A stretch of DNA of 64,000 nucleotides from Arthrobacter sp. HY1533 (GTDB lineage Bacteria > Actinomycetota > Actinomycetes > Actinomycetales > Micrococcaceae), in NCBI RefSeq assembly GCF_027568515.1, contig NZ_JANKZF010000019.1:26945-90944 (forward strand). Direction: 5' to 3'. Shown one piece after another: positions 17,345 through 60,317 of this stretch. The notes below the pieces were generated by a model that had not been told where the DNA came from, did no database searches, and worked only from the letters and a program-made list of their open reading frames with translations. Made by a program: the position numbers and the translations under genes. Position 1 is the first letter of the stretch. The number at the start of each line of letters is the position of its first letter.

Positions 17345-17373
17345 GGGCGGGAATTGAACCCGGTACCAAGAGA
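17345..17373 (-). repeat. Left attachment site: tRNA-Arg 3'-half copy
   Basis: GGGCGGGAATTGAACCC, three unmatched bases and ACCAAGAGA repeat the T-arm and variable-loop region of the intact tRNA at 60251-60279 in the same orientation, 26 of 29 identical. Similarity fades on both sides. This is the expected att remnant after integration into a tRNA 3' end. Confidence 0.7.
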
Positions 17374-17480
17374 AACTCAGGAGTCTCATGCCTTCTGTCG
17401 TCATTCAATGCCAAAAAAGCCAATTTCCGGGGATCTTCAGGTCAGTGGAGTCCATCGATATGCCATGATCAATGGTTGGT

Positions 17481-17510
17481 TTTCGTTCAAAAACGTGAGT
17501 AAAACGTGAC
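17481..17510 (+). repeat. Integrase arm-type repeat, left end
   Basis: A 30-base sequence containing CAAAAACGTGAGTAAA followed by ACGTGAC; it matches 60146-60175 at 28 of 30 positions in the same orientation. It lies about 110 bases inside the left tRNA remnant. In the circular form it would fall on the opposite side of the core from the right-end copies, as arm-type integrase sites do. Confidence 0.6.
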
Positions 17511-19595: not shown

Positions 19596-21392
19596 ATGGA
19601 TATGGAGCTGCAAGGCGTGACCGCCGTCAATGAAAGAATTCTCAGGTGCCGTCGGCTCAGAGCCTACGTTTTGGCGAATGACCGCACACCATTGACCGAC
19701 GGACACATTGACGTCTACGCAGATGCTGAAAAGATCTCCAACGCGAACTTCCAGCACCGCGTAAATGTCCAGGTGAAGGCCCGAGAACACAAAGCCGGGA
19801 AGAATCCGCCGAAGTCATTCGCAGTAAAGGCGAACGACCTTCGAGGGTTCTTAGAACTGCGCGGCGTTCTCTACTTCGTTGTGTACATCAACAAAAAGAC
19901 ACTTCAAACTAGGTTGATGTACGCACAACTCACGCCGTTCAAGATCGAGGGCCTACTTAAGAAAATTCCGGCTAGTGGAAGTGTCAGCATCCGCCTCGAA
20001 CCATTCCCCCACGATCCCTCGGAAATCGAGAAAATCATTCGATTTGCGGCAAACGCACAATCAGAGGACCCGCGGGCTCGAATTGACTTCAATTTGCTCC
20101 GAGATCCGGTAAGTATCACCCTGCATTCTGACAAGACGCTTGACCTTTCAGCTCCTCTGACCTTAACGCGAGATAGGGCAAACTACTCCGTTTCCTACCA
20201 ATTCGCCGACGGTTCCAGAGTTTTCGTTGACCACGAATTAGCGATCTTTCCGGAGGACTACTACGGGAGATACACCAACGTGCGTGTTGAAGCTGGAGAC
20301 TTTGAGTACGCGAATCCGCGCCTGAGGAAATTAGACGACTCCACGGTTGAGGTCACTCTCTCCAAGGGAATAGTAATGACCATGTCTAGGGAGGGATCGA
20401 CGCTCAAATCGCCAGGTAGCATCAGAGTGTCCATGCGTCCCACACTCGAAGAGCGCCTACACGACCTTGGCTTTTACTTCACACTCCTAGAAAACCAGTC
20501 TCTCAAGATCAATGGCACCCTTCACGCAATGCTCGTAACTCCCAATGAAGAAACCAGTGATCTCCGTAGCCACTTTCACTTCCTAGAAACTATCGCCAAA
20601 CTATGTGGACGTCTAGGCGTAGACACCCGACTCGTGGACCTTGAATCTCTTGAGGAGTACAGAGGAAAGCAGCTGCTGGCCCTTGAGGGCGTGCTACTTC
20701 ACGGTGAAACACTCTCCTTGGAACATCAACACCTAGGAAGAATCTCCCAACCTATCGGAGAGTGGAATCTCCAATTCATCGTGCTCAATGATCCAACAAC
20801 TAGTACATGGCGCTTGTACGGGACATTCGATCCAAACATGCCAGGACACATCGTTTCTCAATCTACGGACACGCACGATGCCCCCGCCATCGTCACTGTC
20901 TACGACGTGATCGAATACATGTACCTTCCATTCACACTGAACCTGCACCTAGAGAATTTGGTCGCTGCATACCAAAAGGTCTCAGGCCACGCAGGAACAG
21001 ATGATCGAGCCAATGAAACAGTTCTAAATCTCCTTCGCGCTGCCGACGACGTTCCTCGTAGACGAGTAGAATTTCTCACCGCCGCAACCGAACTCAACTC
21101 TTGGCTCCAAGCCAAGTACGGAAAACAACCCCATTATCTAATCAATGGATGGCAAATCGCCGCACGCACAGGAGATCTTTCCTCACTTGACAAAGAATCC
21201 ATTCGAACACTCAAACACCAAGCTACACGAGAAGATAAAGAAGGCGCCAGAGAAATAGAACTTGCCTGCGCCATCCTTCTCCAAGATGATGCAGAGAGAG
21301 ATTTCTGTTTGAAGAAACTCGACACTCGTCTAGCCAAACAATTCAAAACATGGCCTATTTGGCGCCTAACAGAAACTGAACCCCGGCTTTGA
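19596..21392 (+). CDS. Large hypothetical protein with DUF4365-like nuclease N-terminus
   Basis: A 598-residue protein. The N-terminal 120 residues resemble DUF4365, a PD-(D/E)XK nuclease-like domain found in defence and mobile-element proteins: E13 in VNERI, D39 in GHIDVY and Q59-V-K61 in VNVQVKAR, then GFLELRGVLYFVVYINK. The remaining 470 residues are unrecognised and mixed alpha/beta. Composition is less G+C-rich than the backbone. A start one or two codons inside (MELQG) is possible. The candidate role is DNA cleavage in a conflict system; only the N-terminal motif supports this. Confidence 0.65.
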   Translation: MDMELQGVTAVNERILRCRRLRAYVLANDRTPLTDGHIDVYADAEKISNANFQHRVNVQVKAREHKAGKNPPKSFAVKANDLRGFLELRGVLYFVVYINKKTLQTRLMYAQLTPFKIEGLLKKIPASGSVSIRLEPFPHDPSEIEKIIRFAANAQSEDPRARIDFNLLRDPVSITLHSDKTLDLSAPLTLTRDRANYSVSYQFADGSRVFVDHELAIFPEDYYGRYTNVRVEAGDFEYANPRLRKLDDSTVEVTLSKGIVMTMSREGSTLKSPGSIRVSMRPTLEERLHDLGFYFTLLENQSLKINGTLHAMLVTPNEETSDLRSHFHFLETIAKLCGRLGVDTRLVDLESLEEYRGKQLLALEGVLLHGETLSLEHQHLGRISQPIGEWNLQFIVLNDPTTSTWRLYGTFDPNMPGHIVSQSTDTHDAPAIVTVYDVIEYMYLPFTLNLHLENLVAAYQKVSGHAGTDDRANETVLNLLRAADDVPRRRVEFLTAATELNSWLQAKYGKQPHYLINGWQIAARTGDLSSLDKESIRTLKHQATREDKEGAREIELACAILLQDDAERDFCLKKLDTRLAKQFKTWPIWRLTETEPRL

Positions 21393-21772: not shown

Positions 21773-22723
21773 ATGATTAGTTCTGCGGATTTAGCTTCTC
21801 CGTCCGAGTTGCGTCAGTACAAGCTGATTGGGCGAATTCTTGAGGTATCGGAAGAAACTGGCCATCGTCAGGTACCGACAGAATCGCTCTACAGGGGCGG
21901 GCACCTGCTCAATGCTGATGAGCGGGCAATGGACGCTGACTTGGCCGCCTTCAAAGCGCGCGGCTGGGTCGACTACTTCGCTTCGGTGGCGGGTATCGAC
22001 GAAGTAGTTCTCAAGCAGCCAGGCGCAGATGCCGGTGAGGCATTCGAGAAGTTCAGGACCAATCCGAGAAACAGAGTCCCCGCAGCTCGGGATGCCCTTG
22101 TGCAGTGGCTATATGACGAATACCTTGACGGCAATTCTTACCCCGTGATCAACAGGTTCTCTGAAAGTGCCTTCGAGAACTTCTATGGCGTTCCTTTCAC
22201 CTGGCCCGAAGTCATCCGTGCATGCACGTGGTTGCACTCTGAGGGATTCATCGCGGGTACTAGGACGAACGCGGGCGTTGTCCCTCGGCCTAGCATCACC
22301 CCGAAGGGCATACGCTTTGTTGAAGGTAGGGCATCTGTCAATGATCAGCACAACGGAGGAGTAACTACGGTGACCAACAATCACCTCAAGGTCGAGGGAT
22401 CTAGCGGCGTCAACGTGGCATTGAATAGCCAGAACGTCAATCAGTCCAACTCGGTGACGATTGAACAGATCGAACAGACCACCAAGTTCATCGGGAGTGC
22501 CAGGTCACTGGTGCCAGCTCTGGGTCTAGATGGGGATCAGCAAGAGCGCGCCTTGCAGGTCATTGGTGAGCTTGAAGTTGAGTCCACCTCGACCGCTCCA
22601 AACCAGGGCCGGCTGAAGCAACTGATGGGAAAAGTCTTGGAAATCGTCGTAACAGGAACTGCCACGGGAGTAGCAGATGCTCTTGTGGCTATGGGCAATG
22701 GCGTCATTGGCTCTTTGGGGTAG
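21773..22723 (+). CDS. Winged-helix protein with conflict-system-type C-terminus
   Basis: A 316-residue protein. Residues 1-190 contain two helical/winged-helix-like stretches (SELRQYKLIGRILEVSEETGH; FTWPEVIRACTWLHSEGFIAGT then SITPKGIRFVEG). Residues 205-240 are Asn/Val-rich short strands (NNHLKVEG, NVALNSQNVNQSNSVT). A helical segment follows and then a Gly/Ala/Val-rich hydrophobic end (VVTGTATGVADALVAMGNGV). The Asn-rich strands plus hydrophobic tail recur in predicted effector proteins such as AbiTii-like ones; a membrane-acting effector is a possibility. ATG 21773 follows GTTGGGGA. Confidence 0.6.
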   Translation: MISSADLASPSELRQYKLIGRILEVSEETGHRQVPTESLYRGGHLLNADERAMDADLAAFKARGWVDYFASVAGIDEVVLKQPGADAGEAFEKFRTNPRNRVPAARDALVQWLYDEYLDGNSYPVINRFSESAFENFYGVPFTWPEVIRACTWLHSEGFIAGTRTNAGVVPRPSITPKGIRFVEGRASVNDQHNGGVTTVTNNHLKVEGSSGVNVALNSQNVNQSNSVTIEQIEQTTKFIGSARSLVPALGLDGDQQERALQVIGELEVESTSTAPNQGRLKQLMGKVLEIVVTGTATGVADALVAMGNGVIGSLG

Positions 22724-22772
22724 CTATCCCGCCGCCCGCCGACATACTGGCATGTCTGCGGGCGTAGCAGCG

Positions 22773-23117
22773 CTATTCAGATTTCTTGGAGTCCCGCAGA
22801 GCTCCATAAATCCTACTGGTTGCTCGGCCGAGGCCAGACTTTTCGATTACGAGCTCTGTAACGTATACGAATCCGGAACATATGAGTACGATCCCAACAG
22901 CAAGTCCGGAAACTTGAAGTACCCAAAGTAGGACTGCCCATGCTCCAGGGTTTCTCAGGTAGCCTGCGGCGACAGCAAAGCAGTACAGAACTCCAGCGAC
23001 GACTAGGCCGGAAATCGTACGAGCAACGACATCCCGCCAGAATTTCTCATCTCGCCACCAGATGCGAAACCATGAGACCTGTTTCGCCTCAGGTTTTGTG
23101 CTGCCAGTTTCACTCAT
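22773..23117 (-). CDS. Small membrane protein, 114 aa
   Basis: Two or three hydrophobic helices (TISGLVVAGVLYCFAVAAGY; AWAVLLWVLQVSGLAVGIVLIC; SGFVYVTELVI) after a basic Trp-rich stretch (FRIWWRDEKFWRDVV). No family recognised. It converges on the gene at 21773 and is preceded by a small cytoplasmic ORF on the same strand 24 bases upstream. Could be an immunity or accessory protein to its neighbours, but nothing in the sequence shows that. Confidence 0.55.
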   Translation of the reverse strand: MSETGSTKPEAKQVSWFRIWWRDEKFWRDVVARTISGLVVAGVLYCFAVAAGYLRNPGAWAVLLWVLQVSGLAVGIVLICSGFVYVTELVIEKSGLGRATSRIYGALRDSKKSE

Positions 23118-23141
23118 GACGCAAGCGTATTCGAATCGGGA

Positions 23142-23384
23142 TCACTCTCGCTTGATTAGTTCAGCGGGAAACCAATCGAAATGATACTTACCCCTTGAGT
23201 CAGTCCATTCAATGAGCCCGTGATGCCAGGTGTATGCCACTGCCCTGCCATGGATGTCACCGGCTCTCACTTGGGGAATTTCACTGGGGGAGAACTCCGT
23301 CATTGGTCCATCCCCAGGCACCACTGACTCGGCCTTCATCCGGGCCATCATCTTTTCAAAACCTGCTGCATCGAACTTGTTCAT
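23142..23384 (-). CDS. Hypothetical protein, 80 aa
   Basis: A small soluble protein (MNKFDAAGFEKMMARMKAES at the start, HGRAVAYTWHHGLIEWTDSRGKYHFDW near the end). The last part looks like a short beta barrel seen in many actinobacterial hypotheticals. ATG 23384 has an AGG nine bases upstream; starts at 23393 and 23414 are possible. Probably one unit with the membrane protein downstream. Confidence 0.5.
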   Translation of the reverse strand: MNKFDAAGFEKMMARMKAESVVPGDGPMTEFSPSEIPQVRAGDIHGRAVAYTWHHGLIEWTDSRGKYHFDWFPAELIKRE

Positions 23385-23472
23385 GACCGCCATCCTGCCA
23401 TCTAGTACTGACATTCTAATTCGAATGATTGAGGATGGCAGATAGGAGTTCTAGGAAGGTGAAGCCATACCA

Positions 23473-23862
23473 CTAGGCCTCGCCATAAATAGCCTTCGGA
23501 GTCAGTGCCTTGTCCACGACCTCACCTCCAAAGCGCCTGGCCAACATTCCGCCGGCGCCTGGACAAGCCAAAATGAGGCCGGATGCTGGTTGGTCCGTAC
23601 TGATCTCTAGTAGCCCCCCTGCCTGGACTTGCCCGGGCTGACGAACCGGATCAAGGGAACCCACATAGCAACTCCTCCACGTGGCCGCCGCCAAAAACCT
23701 ACCCCCAAACACCGCGTGCGGTGTGTCAACTTCGCGAGCACGATAGATGAGGCACTCGCGAACTACTCCTTGAGCAGACCACAAGGGTTGTATGTTTAGC
23801 GCGACACGGACATGAAATAGAATTAAACCTTTTGAAACGCTATATACTGTCAGAATGCACAT
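23473..23862 (-). CDS. Doubtful ORF, possible gene remnant
   Basis: A 129-codon frame whose second half (QPGQVQAGGLLEIST, SGLILACPGAGGMLARR) looks more protein-like than its first half. The first 45 residues have no coding character and there is no ribosome site at the start, so it may be the 3' remnant of a gene truncated at its 5' end. Kept only because this 470-base stretch has no better candidate. Confidence 0.22.
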   Translation of the reverse strand: MCILTVYSVSKGLILFHVRVALNIQPLWSAQGVVRECLIYRAREVDTPHAVFGGRFLAAATWRSCYVGSLDPVRQPGQVQAGGLLEISTDQPASGLILACPGAGGMLARRFGGEVVDKALTPKAIYGEA

Positions 23863-23898
23863 GGGACCGGCAATTAGGAAAAAATGGGGTGGCGAGGT

Positions 23899-25062
23899 AT
23901 GAAAATTACATCGAGATTACAGGATAATCGCATTGGTGCCGTAAATGTCTTGGCCGAGATGTCGCTTTCCGAGTATGCAGATCTGATTTCTGATAATCTT
24001 TCCAAGAATGAATTTCAGCGACGCCGCGTGAGTTCTTCGAAAACAGTCTATGCACTGCTGAAGGATGACATGCGCCGTGGATGCGTAATTCCCCCTTTGG
24101 TGTTAGCGCTCACTGAGGAAAGTGTTGAGATAGATAGACTGAGTAATGCTGAACTCGAGGCACTTATTGTTGATCAGGCATCCCGGCTCGTAATTCTAGA
24201 TGGATTGCAGAGAACACACACAATAATTGATCTCCTGCAAGAGATTGATAAAATAGATCCGCAGAGCTCAGCTACGCCTGTTGGTGATATGCCGGTTCGC
24301 GTTGAAGTTTACGTCGGGTTAAACCGCCTAGGTATCCTATACCGAATGCTCACCCTTAACACCGGACAGACGCCGATGTCCCTTCGTCAACAAATTGAAA
24401 TGCTCTATTTGGATTACCATGATCCTGAATCTCGCATTGACCTCATACGGGAGGCTGATAATAGGATTGTAAAGAATCCTCATGAGTACAACTTCAAGGA
24501 TGTTGTTGAGGGCTTCAATGCATATCTAAATCGAGATGAGCTTCCAATCGACCGTACGAGTTTGTTGGAAAATATCCGAAGCCTCGAGAAACTTTCGAAG
24601 GAAAACCAAGACTCTGATGTATTCCGCAAGTATTCGGAGATATTGGACGATTTTATATTCCAAGTTGTTGACCTTGGTGGAGATGCAGAGCTGGCTGAAG
24701 ACGATCTTATTGGGTCGAGTCCATTTGGTCGAACAGTAAATCAAGTTTTTAAGAAACCTCAAGCAATGTCAGGGCTTGGAGCTGCTTTGGGCAAGCTTAT
24801 TGACCGGAACGTATTCAATAATCTTGATGAGGCATCTGAAGCTATCGAAAACATTAAGATGGATAACCCCGAAGAGTTTCTGGTCGAAATAAACCGCTCA
24901 CTGTCTTGGCTGAAAAACCATACAACAAAAATTGGCAATGCTCAAAGAACGTTTTTTACTTTCTATTTCCGGGAGCTCTTAAATCCAGAAACTGATAGTT
25001 ATCTCGATCTTCAGTCGGCCGCCACAACGGCCCTGCGTAAATACCAAGACCAGAATATATAG
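23899..25062 (+). CDS. ParB/DUF262-DndB-fold protein, first gene of a conflict-like pair
   Basis: A 387-residue protein. The motif LVILDGLQRTHTI (D101-G-L-Q-R-T) corresponds to the DGQHR/DGQQR signature of the ParB/sulfiredoxin-like fold found in DUF262 (GmrSD), DndB and relatives; upstream QRRRVSSSKTVYALLKDDMRRG and IPPLVLAL, and downstream RMLTLNTGQTPMSLRQQIE, fit the same fold. The C-terminal half is helical. Coding DNA is much more A/T-rich than the flanks. ATG 23899 has GGTGG upstream; ATG 23884 is an alternative. Four bases separate it from the next gene, so they form an operon. These folds often bind nucleotides or modified DNA in restriction systems. Confidence 0.7.
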   Translation: MKITSRLQDNRIGAVNVLAEMSLSEYADLISDNLSKNEFQRRRVSSSKTVYALLKDDMRRGCVIPPLVLALTEESVEIDRLSNAELEALIVDQASRLVILDGLQRTHTIIDLLQEIDKIDPQSSATPVGDMPVRVEVYVGLNRLGILYRMLTLNTGQTPMSLRQQIEMLYLDYHDPESRIDLIREADNRIVKNPHEYNFKDVVEGFNAYLNRDELPIDRTSLLENIRSLEKLSKENQDSDVFRKYSEILDDFIFQVVDLGGDAELAEDDLIGSSPFGRTVNQVFKKPQAMSGLGAALGKLIDRNVFNNLDEASEAIENIKMDNPEEFLVEINRSLSWLKNHTTKIGNAQRTFFTFYFRELLNPETDSYLDLQSAATTALRKYQDQNI

Positions 25063-25066
25063 GCGC

Positions 25067-26212
25067 ATGGCAATCAAAGTGGGAGTTTTAGACGACGCTT
25101 GGACCGTGGATTTTGACGGGCTTGACTTTGTTGCTACCGATTCGGCTTCCGGTGTTGAAGTTCGCATCTCGTCTCCCTTGAATCTTGATGCGGGCTTTGC
25201 GGATGATTCATACACTGTGCATACTTTCCTCTTTAAGGGACTTTCGGAGAACTCAACATTTGACGTATCGGTAAAGGGAGGTGGCCGTAATTTTGCACTT
25301 TTGACTCCAGCAAATGCTGTGGGGTCAGTTGATCACGACAGGGCCGGGAAGGCGTATTATGCCAAGTGTGCATATGTGATCATTCGAGATATTCTTGGGC
25401 AAAAATTGGCTGGAGATCCGCAGTTTTTTGAGCCGTATGCAGGAATCAATGGACCTATTCCGTTCTCAGATCTATTTCATGACGACACTTGTTTTCTATT
25501 AGTTGACAACGCCGAAGCCAGCAAAGTTAAGAATTTTAGTTTGACCAAGATAGTACCCAGTCTTTTGGCTAATGGATTTGTTCCTGTTGACGTTTGTAAT
25601 CCTCAGGAGCTAGCTTGGAGGAGTCCAATCGAGTTAGATACTAAATCACTGAAGGTATCGCTAATTTCTGACGATATTGGTGACCCTGAATTGATTGGTG
25701 ATCTATGCTCGCTTGCTGTGAAGGCAAGTGGATCCTCGATTATGCAGTTTTTCTATTTGTATCAAATATTCGAATACTTAATGGAAAGTGTTCTGAAGCA
25801 CAGGCTTCCAGAGGTTGCGATAGAGATGCTAAGGAAAATTGAAAATGGATCCGGTGATCTGTACGATGATTATTCGCTACTAGCTGAGGTCATGCGAGAG
25901 AAAGAGAGGCTCCAATTGCTCGTGGGCAAGTACTCCGATTGCCAGTCAAGTTTGGGCTCCCTCGCCAGTGTTTCGCTTGACTTCATGAGGTCTGTTAATT
26001 TCAAGATTTCAGGCGAAATGTCAGGTGTGAAGGCTGTTTATGCCGTTCGGAATTTCCTGTTTCATCAAGCTAGGAATCTGCCCGTCCATGGAGAGTCGAA
26101 ACTGGATGCGGTCGTTACTGCCTTAGCTCAGTTTATTCCGGAGCTCCTTGCGACTTATAAATATCCAAAACACACAACTGTCTGGCCACTAATGCCGGCA
26201 GTTCCGTCGTGA
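25067..26212 (+). CDS. Hypothetical protein with C-terminal HEPN-like motif
   Basis: A 381-residue protein of no family I know. The first 200 residues are mainly beta (VGVLDDAWTVDFDGLDFVAT...), perhaps a sensor. The C-terminal 150 residues are helical and contain AVYAVRNFLFHQARNL: R328-N-x-x-x-H333 fits the R(N/D/H)x(4-6)H active-site signature of HEPN ribonucleases found in toxins and abortive-infection proteins. Together with the ParB-fold partner four bases upstream and the strong base-composition shift, this suggests a two-gene defence or toxin module. The HEPN call rests on one short motif in a helical setting. Confidence 0.6.
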   Translation: MAIKVGVLDDAWTVDFDGLDFVATDSASGVEVRISSPLNLDAGFADDSYTVHTFLFKGLSENSTFDVSVKGGGRNFALLTPANAVGSVDHDRAGKAYYAKCAYVIIRDILGQKLAGDPQFFEPYAGINGPIPFSDLFHDDTCFLLVDNAEASKVKNFSLTKIVPSLLANGFVPVDVCNPQELAWRSPIELDTKSLKVSLISDDIGDPELIGDLCSLAVKASGSSIMQFFYLYQIFEYLMESVLKHRLPEVAIEMLRKIENGSGDLYDDYSLLAEVMREKERLQLLVGKYSDCQSSLGSLASVSLDFMRSVNFKISGEMSGVKAVYAVRNFLFHQARNLPVHGESKLDAVVTALAQFIPELLATYKYPKHTTVWPLMPAVPS

Positions 26213-26282
26213 CTAACAAACTCAGGCGATTATTTGACTTTCATTCTGGTATGGTCGTCGAATCTTCGTCCGGGATCTAAGT

Positions 26283-26299
26283 CGGCGAAAAATTCGCCG
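26283..26299 (+). terminator. Terminator-like hairpin after the ParB-fold/HEPN pair
   Basis: CGGCGAA, three A, TTCGCCG: a perfect 7-bp stem followed by GTGTGTTAATAT. It lies 70 bases after the stop at 26212 and before the convergent integrase gene. Confidence 0.5.
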
Positions 26300-26401
26300 T
26301 GTGTTAATATTCGGGTTACCTTCTTCACGGGTGGATGCTAGTTTCGACCATCGCTGGAAAATTAGTTTGTTCGTCATTATTTGGATTTTATTAGATTTTT
26401 A

Positions 26402-27598
26402 CTATTCACCAGATTCTGGTATATTCAGTTGATCCCCAAAGGCTTGCAGTATCTCAGTATTGTCCGGTGCCTCGTGCGTCTTTTGGACGTAATGCTTGCT
26501 CGTAATCTGCTCGCTGGAATGCCCGAGCTGCGCCGTCGCCGCGGCCATGCCCTGGGTGTTGGCCAGGATGGTCCCCACGGACTTCCGAAAAGTGTGGGGC
26601 GTGACCCAGTCAATGCCGACAGCTTTCCTTGCGTCGCGCCATTGCTTGCGAAACCCGTTAGGGTCCCGAATGGTCAAGGTGCTGGACGGGAACACCAGAT
26701 CAAGGTCATTCTGGCGAACTGGATCAGCTTGACGCCTGCGCAGCATCTCGACGGCGAAGGGCGGCAGGAAGTAGCGTTGCCGTGAGTTAGCACTTTTGGG
26801 GTGGTCTTGGATTCTGAGCCCGTTCTTGCCCCGAACGTTGATGACTGTCCCGCGAATGGTGACGGTTGGCTTCTCGGCGGCAAGATCAACGTCGGACCAC
26901 CGAATGGCTAGCGCCTCGCCAATCCTAGCGCCGGTGGCTAGCATGATGTCGACGACGTCGAGGATGTCCTTTTCGTGCAAACCGTTCTGCCGCCCGGTTG
27001 GTTGCTGCCAGGCATAGACGTCGTGACGGAGTTTGACCACCTCGTCGATGGTCAATGCTCTAACTTCTTTGCTGCTGCTGGTGGGTATGCGGGCGACCTC
27101 ACGGAGCGGATTAGCGGGGGCTGCACCATGGCGTGTAGCTAGGGACAGCATGCCAGTGAGCAGTGTCTTAGACATTTTGGCTGTTGCATTGCCGTGTTTG
27201 GTTCGTACACCTTTGAGGAACTTATCCAGGGTGGAGACGTTGGCTTCACGGATGGTTAGGTTGCCAACGCCGGGCAGGATGTAGGTGTCTATGATTTCCC
27301 GGTAGCGTCGGCGTGTATTGGCGGCTCTGCCGAGGTCTTCGAATTCTAGCCACCAGAATTTGGCAAGTTCGCTCATGGCCATGTCGGGGCTGATCACGTC
27401 ATCGGTGGGTGGCAGCATCGCGTTCAACTTCGCCAGAAGGGTGGCTTCGGCTTGTGCCCCTGTTGGCCCGGTTGATTGGTACATGCGGGGCTTCCCGTCG
27501 TAGCCGCGCATGGTTGCCCGGGCCCTCCATGTGGTTGGCCCGAGCTTCCGGCGGGTTACTTTTCCCCACGTCCCGAGTGGTGTTTTTGCTCTAGCCAA
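26402..27598 (-). CDS. int: Tyrosine recombinase (phage/ICE integrase)
   Basis: A 398-residue integrase that would insert and excise the element at tRNA-Arg. Order: AP2-like arm-binding N-terminus (TWRARATMRGYDGKPRMYQS), SAM-like core-binding domain (MAMSELAKFWWLEFEDL), then the catalytic domain with Arg in LATGARIGEALAIRW, H-x-x-R in TPHTFRKSVG, His in AQLGHSSEQIT and Tyr in SKHYVQKT. The start is taken as TTG 27598, which overlaps the excisionase stop (ATTGGCTAG) and has GGAAGA upstream; the long open frame to 27736 is the excisionase shadow. It is 9 kb from the left end because cargo lies between. Confidence 0.92.
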   Translation of the reverse strand: MARAKTPLGTWGKVTRRKLGPTTWRARATMRGYDGKPRMYQSTGPTGAQAEATLLAKLNAMLPPTDDVISPDMAMSELAKFWWLEFEDLGRAANTRRRYREIIDTYILPGVGNLTIREANVSTLDKFLKGVRTKHGNATAKMSKTLLTGMLSLATRHGAAPANPLREVARIPTSSSKEVRALTIDEVVKLRHDVYAWQQPTGRQNGLHEKDILDVVDIMLATGARIGEALAIRWSDVDLAAEKPTVTIRGTVINVRGKNGLRIQDHPKSANSRQRYFLPPFAVEMLRRRQADPVRQNDLDLVFPSSTLTIRDPNGFRKQWRDARKAVGIDWVTPHTFRKSVGTILANTQGMAAATAQLGHSSEQITSKHYVQKTHEAPDNTEILQAFGDQLNIPESGE

Positions 27599-27812
27599 TG
27601 GGGTCTTCCGTGGTGGCGAGCCATGCGTTGAAGTCCGTGCGGCTGATACGAAGGTGGCGTCCGATCCTGTGAGCCCTCGGGCCCGCGTGCTTGACGCGCC
27701 ACTGATAGAAGGTTTGCTCAGGAATCTGCAGCTCATGGCAGATCTCCTTAGGCGTCATCCATTCGTCTACGAACGCAGGGATCGACGGTGCATGGTTTGG
27801 CTGGTCGGTCAT
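27591..27812 (-). CDS. xis: Excisionase, helix-turn-helix (HTH_17/MerR-like)
   Basis: A 73-residue DNA-binding protein: WMTPKEICHELQIPEQTFYQWRVKHAGPRAHRIGRHLRISRTDFNAWL is the winged-helix core of actinobacterial excisionases (split here as MTPKEICHELQIP, TFYQWR and GRHLRISRTDFNAW). It directs the integrase toward excision. The stop overlaps the integrase start by eight bases, so the two are translationally coupled. Confidence 0.85.
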   Translation of the reverse strand: MTDQPNHAPSIPAFVDEWMTPKEICHELQIPEQTFYQWRVKHAGPRAHRIGRHLRISRTDFNAWLATTEDPIG

Positions 27813-60081: not shown

Positions 60082-60190
60082 CCAAAAACGTGAGCAGAAA
60101 TTGAACCCATTTCCGCCCCAAAGCAAACCAAAAACGTGACGAATTTTTCATTCAAAAACGTGAGTAAATCGTGACTTGGGTCGTTTTTGG
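60082..60190. repeat. Cluster of integrase arm-type repeats, right end
   Basis: The motif CCAAAAACGTGAS occurs at 60082-60095 and 60128-60140, TTCAAAAACGTGAGT at 60151-60165, and an inverted CGTTTTTGG at 60182-60190. The 30 bases at 60146-60175 match the left-end copy 17481-17510 at 28 positions. The spacing just inside the tRNA suggests integrase or excisionase arm sites. A GAAATTGAACCC at 60097-60108 also echoes the att core. Confidence 0.6.
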
Positions 60191-60244
60191 CCTTAAGTGA
60201 CTCCGACCCGCAGGATGAAACCGCAGGTCAGAGCCACTTTTTGG

Positions 60245-60317
60245 TGCCCCGGGCGGGAATTGAACCCACGACCAAGAGATTAGAAGGCTCCTGCTCTATC
60301 CGCTGAGCTACCGAGGC
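60245..60317 (-). tRNA. tRNA-Arg(UCU), integration target
   Basis: Read on the minus strand: acceptor GCCTCGG pairing with CCGGGGC (one T-G wobble), D-arm GCTC/GAGC, anticodon loop CTTCTAA with anticodon TCT, T-arm GTGGG/CCCGC with loop TTCAATT, discriminator A and an encoded CCA at 60242-60244. The last anticodon stem pair is mismatched (C-T) and the first is G-T, and the T-loop departs from TTCGAAT, so the gene is slightly degenerate on its 3' side, which is the half the element supplies. Confidence 0.9.

Follow-up and report, generated by a model that had tools for sequence, protein, structure and literature searches.

Among the described systems comparable to the gene pair examined here, which lies in a 64,000-nt stretch of DNA from Arthrobacter sp. 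HY1533 (contig NZ_JANKZF010000019.1, positions 26,945 to 90,944 of the forward strand; hereafter the window, in whose numbering all coordinates are given), the closest is Dazbog, composed of dzbA and dzbB. Dazbog was reportedly first described by Millman et al. in 2022, with Stokar-Avihail 2023 also named as a primary paper, and PD-T4-2, a second system considered here, is said to come from the study of Vassallo et al. in 2022. According to the passages on Dazbog in reviews, it protects against phage, its DUF262 gene is required, and recognition of methylated DNA by DUF262 is suggested. Phage methylases are reported there to activate it (PMC12409349, PMC12926258), a 2025 review (PMC12409349) describes the mechanism in the section concerned as unclear, and the relevant part of a survey (PMC11680222) places Dazbog among the abortive-infection systems. 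PD-T4-2 is listed under DUF262 and HEPN (PF18735) in an entry of a 2023 review (PMC10952713), and the combination of a HEPN domain with a DUF262-type protein is what we propose below for Dazbog. More generally, the 2013 survey of HEPN families (PMC3710099) describes members that are either fused to ParB or DUF262 proteins or encoded in one operon with them.

The pair in the window consists of two adjacent genes of the same strand, 4 bases apart (25063–25066):

23899–25062, forward strand: dzbA (gene 1), 387 aa, a ParB/DUF262(GmrS)-type protein with the motif D101-G-L-Q-R105
25067–26212, forward strand: dzbB (gene 2), 381 aa, a predicted HEPN RNase

An in-frame ATG is also present upstream of dzbA at 23884, and most of the relatives displayed begin at the position equivalent to 23899. 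The product of gene 1 matches the PADLOC profile for DzbA (PDLC03835; E 2.7e-138, 459.5 bits) over residues 1–385 and profile positions 2–392 of 393, and that of gene 2 matches the profile for DzbB (PDLC03836; E 1.3e-48, 164.2 bits) over residues 20–365 and profile positions 10–338 of 341. Because both matches are nearly full length, the pair is assigned by sequence to Dazbog, an already described phage defence system, and does not represent a new type of pair. Both proteins, the gene order, the strand and the near-complete length are common to Dazbog and the window pair, no difference in kind was found, and the window copy differs by sitting on an actinobacterial integrative element. Though the first-pass annotation had recognized no known system here and had taken the genes for an undescribed defence pair, neither statement can be upheld, as PADLOC names both proteins and precedents for DUF262 with HEPN exist; a new system was rejected on the near full-length matches. 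A Dnd component was also rejected; the Pfam DndB match of DzbA (E 1e-3, 18.6 bits) is below the cut-off of 29.1. Neither protein had a PD-T4-2 model among its PADLOC matches at E values up to 1, the content of the library for PD-T4-2 not having been checked. An NCBIfam scan of the pair returned a chance-level match only, and the strong PHROG match of DzbA is to phrog_27603 (E 2.7e-18), a family without assigned function. The source genome contains a single DzbB match, and the window DzbB is 38–47 % identical to six relatives from a protein search. The anti-phage function of this copy is predicted from family identity. What is likely to be new is the prediction that DzbB is a HEPN RNase; no HEPN annotation of DzbB was found in the literature on Dazbog, DzbA, DzbB and DUF262 with HEPN, a search outside which the original Dazbog papers lay, and the claim of novelty may be wrong.

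Relatives were gathered by a scan with an alignment of DzbA relatives, and the resulting set of 94 loci (designated by L numbers) comprises the best 80 of 96 genome loci and 14 viral-contig loci. When the DzbB proteins were aligned and curated (alignment A2), Y325, R328 and H333 of the window protein were invariant (79/79) and E236 was found in 78 of the 79, with one gap, at a mean column identity of 19 %. An earlier alignment of the proteins encoded downstream of dzbA likewise has R328 and H333 in 84 of its 85 sequences; the remaining one, from L031, is unrelated. This constancy is far beyond chance, and a chance motif was rejected; the RNxxxH motif that the first-pass annotation had picked out in the second protein (RNFLFH, residues 328–333, or R328-N-x3-H333) is thus real. 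The AlphaFold2 model of DzbB (pLDDT 93.5, pTM 0.90) has N-terminal strands and helices over residues ~1–200 and a helical C-terminal domain over ~207–362, in which E236 lies on helix 224–259, and R328 and H333 lie together on helix 321–337, followed by helix 340–362. In its account of the active site the HEPN survey (PMC3710099) places Rx4-6H at the end of helix 3 and an acidic residue on helix 2, with inserts between them, and the arrangement of helices and residues in DzbB fits this description. DzbB resembles the HEPN RNases (HepT, Apea-like, RiboL-PSP-HEPN and Csm6) in having an Rx4H motif, an acidic residue upstream of it and a like placement of helices, and in its similarity to the HepT profile; it differs in its sub-cut-off Pfam scores and in having an N-terminal part of its own.

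The similarity to HepT comes from profile comparisons with hhalign, in which the C-terminal part of DzbB reached E 9.6e-4 with HepT, 0.043 with RiboL-PSP-HEPN and 0.16 with Apea; known HEPN families compared with one another gave 0.013 (Apea and HepT), 0.0031 (Apea and RiboL-PSP) and 0.0066 (HepT and RiboL-PSP). Among the controls, the C-terminal part scored 0.66 with TetR_C_6 and 0.85 with Hpt, the N-terminal part of DzbB and the helical part of DzbA scored 0.25 to 0.77 against all five families, and the families themselves gave 0.58 (HepT and TetR_C_6), 0.53 (Apea and Hpt) and 0.037 (Apea and TetR_C_6). By these profile comparisons the HepT match is clear of the controls. Each of the three alignments places the R and H columns of DzbB on the R and H of the HEPN family, and scores as high as those observed arose with 2, 1 and 2 of 100 permuted profiles. 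When relatives were scanned singly, four of ten matched a HEPN Pfam family, all below the curated cut-offs, and the best of them, HEPN_Apea in L013 (E 2.6e-4) and HepT-like in L068 (E 2.8e-4), span the motif. On this basis DzbB is predicted to act as a HEPN RNase, although the support that goes beyond its motif is modest.

Several observations weigh against this prediction. Searches with the whole DzbB model (PDB, a second look at PDB, and BFVD) found no significant match and no HEPN fold, the window DzbB matches no Pfam family, and the best singly scanned relative reached 21.9 bits against a HEPN cut-off of 24.4. Across alignment A2 the Apea and HepT-like families match 5 and 4 of 79 proteins (E up to 1) and MauJ also matches 5, and the RiboL-PSP-HEPN and Apea profile comparisons are no better than the controls. 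Lastly, the residue after R328 is N in 63 of 79 proteins, including that in the window, C in 14 and S in 2; HEPN proteins typically, though not strictly, have a polar residue (N, D or H) in that place. Sub-threshold scores, two of three profile comparisons at control level, the lack of a fold match, and Cys or Ser after the arginine in 16/79 would all suit a C-terminal domain that is a non-catalytic HEPN-like bundle, serving to bind or dimerise, or no HEPN domain at all, with defence achieved by another route. We consider this quite improbable, as it does not sit well with an arginine and a histidine that are kept throughout a family of such low overall identity. The check by structure prediction that the first-pass annotation had proposed gives a mixed picture: R328 and H333 share one helix and the helix order fits HEPN, and the fold searches with the whole model give no significant match.

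The R-C-x3-H form of the motif occurs in L030, L032–L035, L037–L040, L042 and L045–L048 and the R-S-x3-H form in L067 and L071, judging by the record titles mostly in Clostridia and cyanobacteria. In another place (L102, G000:C22) the host genome also codes for an Apea-like HEPN protein (E 1.6e-10). The top Foldseek row for DzbB, IRE1 at E 0.28, was not used as evidence, and the best matches of the DzbB and DzbA profiles to PDB sequences, a prefoldin subunit (E 0.049) and a designed protein (E 0.0038), respectively, were taken as chance.

The first protein is the better conserved. D101, G102, Q104, R105, R149, N154, G156, Q157, R163 and E167 of DzbA are each present in 87/87 sequences of alignment A4, confirming the DGLQRT motif reported at first pass (residues 101–106), and the third position of the motif is L in 86 of the 87, giving DGLQR and not DGQQR. 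The Pfam GmrSD_N match (E 3.6e-6, 27.7 bits) is below its cut-off of 33.2, and most of the listed DzbA relatives bear PF03235. The predicted structure aligns with entries for ParB, SspE, BrxU and DndBCDE-DndI (BrxU over 274 residues, rmsd 13.9; DndBCDE-DndI over 282 residues, rmsd 7.8), and as modelled DzbA has a ParB/sulfiredoxin-type fold like that of SspE and BrxU, in agreement with its initial classification as a ParB/DUF262-type protein. DzbA has in common with the modification-dependent DUF262 enzymes GmrSD, BrxU, SspE and DndI a ParB/sulfiredoxin-type domain with a DGxQR motif, whereas those proteins carry DGQQR and Dazbog has a separate HEPN-like partner. Alignment over most of its length with BrxU and DndBCDE-DndI, albeit at the high rmsd values given, could also be taken to mean that the pair resembles a split GmrSD in which DzbB, as a nuclease or as a helper, would have modified DNA as its target instead of RNA, and BrxU does cut modified DNA, as stated in the relevant part of a review (PMC10952713). 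However, neither window protein has a match to a PD-(D/E)XK or HNH nuclease, DUF1524 included, and what is invariant in DzbB is the HEPN set of residues, and we give this explanation very little credence.

That homologues of the two genes might fail to co-occur had been named at the outset as grounds for abandoning the pairing, and they do co-occur. Four of the 94 loci (L028, L054, L087 and L091) stop at dzbA, and in 88 of the 90 with sequence beyond it a DzbB-family gene follows. In 82 of the 90 DzbB was called by a profile built from alignment A2, which itself contains most of these proteins (79 in place within 300 bases and three, L059, L063 and L078, with the gene in pieces), and in six distant pairs from viral contigs it was the DzbB profile of PADLOC itself that matched. 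In three of these six (L092, L094 and L095) the second protein matches that profile over the HEPN part alone, and judged from these the N-terminal half of DzbB seems to be exchangeable. No DzbB was found in L031, where an unrelated ORF stands instead, or in L049, where the 399 bases to the contig end gave no match. The dzbB gene is also split in two at L065, and L019 holds just its start; dzbA is broken too in L078, and in L059, L063 and L065 a fragmented dzbB adjoins an intact dzbA. Where dzbB is in fragments or absent, this may reflect either the decay of an effector that is toxic or errors in sequencing.

With dzbA first, the start of the downstream gene falls at −65 to +17 bases in 85 of 89 loci. 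A two-gene operon of this kind, the broken dzbB genes in at least four loci and the unmatched L049, as might befall a toxic gene (sequencing error again being possible), and the frequency of HEPN toxins with partner antitoxins noted in the HEPN survey (PMC3710099, in the part concerned) are all in keeping with a toxin–antitoxin pair, in which DzbA holds the DzbB RNase inactive and infection, for example through a phage methylase or loss of DzbA, frees it, so that DzbA would be more an antitoxin or guard than a direct sensor of DNA. We regard this as unlikely: DzbA keeps the invariant DGxQR pocket motif and resembles modification-dependent enzymes, and the review passages cited above report methylase-linked activation and suggest that DUF262 recognizes methylated DNA.

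Judging by the record titles, Arthrobacter, Bacteroides, Pseudomonas, Streptococcus, Anabaena and two archaea are among the hosts of the relatives. A search for a third Dazbog gene was negative: beyond the pair, no gene family recurred in more than 6 of 89 neighbourhoods. Mean identity is 42 % for DzbA vs 22 % for DzbB, and the distances of the two proteins correlate at 0.75 (56 loci, that of the window among them); such fast change in DzbB, with DzbA far better preserved, would be in line with an effector attacked by phage inhibitors. A tblastn search with DzbA at E 1e-20 gave one plasmid record and no phage record, and a single-sequence scan of the genome contigs yielded no confirmed relative, though the alignment scan did find relatives. 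An alignment search for distant DzbB proteins returned six, five of them already known. Within the phylum, 3 of 396 genomes have a DzbB-profile match, the source genome included; the other two matches cover the HEPN part alone, and the sequence around them (2.7 and 3.5 kb) gave nothing for DzbA below E 0.67, so the HEPN part of the profile also detects other HEPN-like proteins.

The mechanism that we lean towards, with somewhat more confidence than doubt, is that DzbA senses modified phage DNA and switches on the HEPN RNase activity of DzbB, halting the cell. DzbA would meet modified (methylated) phage DNA as the sensing step, and its nucleotide pocket would bind and hydrolyse NTP on that DNA, as BrxU and SspE do, with a change of shape. 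Through contact between the two proteins DzbA would then release or activate DzbB, whose HEPN domain would cut RNA (host tRNA or mRNA being usual for HEPN toxins), and the infected cell would halt, an abortive outcome. The mechanism proposed in the first-pass annotation, a modification sensor with an RNase, stays plausible. Dazbog would then be a GmrS-type sensor with the DNA-cutting half exchanged for a separate RNA-cutting partner. A broader form of this, about evenly balanced between belief and doubt and slightly towards doubt, is that Dazbog confers immunity by cutting RNA: on meeting modified phage DNA, a GmrS-type sensor would set off a separate HEPN ribonuclease that evolves fast, and phages that methylate their DNA to escape restriction would be met by RNA cleavage. 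In this form the HEPN core, and not the N-terminal half of DzbB, would be what the most distant pairs have in common.

The other features of the surroundings are as follows:

26283–26299: perfect 7-bp hairpin between dzbB and the integrase, a possible terminator without a clear T run
26402–27736, reverse strand: tyrosine integrase (Phage_integrase, E 2.3e-17)
17345–17373, no strand assigned: probable att repeat at the far end, a 29-nt direct repeat 90 % identical to 60251–60279
60251–60279, no strand assigned: probable att repeat, inside the 3' half of tRNA-Arg(tct)
60242–60317, reverse strand: tRNA-Arg(tct)

Two repeat pairs, that above and a 31-nt pair at 17480–17510 and 60145–60175 (94 % identical), lie near both ends, one copy of the outer pair in tRNA-Arg, and because of this a probable integrative conjugative element of ~42.9 kb (17345–60279), inserted in tRNA-Arg(tct), is suggested; TraG-like and TrwC relaxase genes are present in it. 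The integrase lies 9 kb inside one end of the element, which seems unusual for a tyrosine integrase. The first-pass description of the pair as defence cargo of a mobile element, beside the integrase of that element, holds, as does the drop in G+C that it reported for two genes 4 bases apart: in 400-base windows G+C is 0.41–0.48 over dzbA and dzbB vs 0.51–0.58 upstream and 0.57–0.63 across the integrase. The hairpin terminator that it placed next to the pair is another matter, as no clear one was found; the hairpin at 26283–26299 has no clear T run, and a scan of 23400–26420 gave one site vs 2.5 expected from shuffles. In the stretches examined for repeats (22700–23960 and 26150–26450), a 90 % palindrome is present at 22717–22730 and a perfect 7-bp inverted repeat with a 2-base loop at 23709–23724. 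A second defence cargo of the element resembles Mza (MzaB to MzaE with a C5 DNA methylase), and if Dazbog senses methylated DNA, it must therefore tolerate the mark of this methylase, which is a useful constraint. Possibly another cargo gene, 19596–21392 encodes a protein of 598 aa that matches DUF4365 below threshold (E 2.9e-4), and the 316-aa protein encoded at 21773–22723 has a weak PADLOC match to PDC-M14B (E 1.1e-4).

The window locus is thus an ordinary Dazbog, and its value lies in a functional prediction for DzbB that has possibly not been printed before. R328 and H333 of DzbB, together with D101 and R105 of DzbA, are the residues that should separate the RNase, toxin–antitoxin and DNA-restriction mechanisms. 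If the prediction is true, modification sensors of the GmrSD type would be linked to RNA-cutting effectors, and a reason would be given for the triggering of Dazbog by phage methylases.
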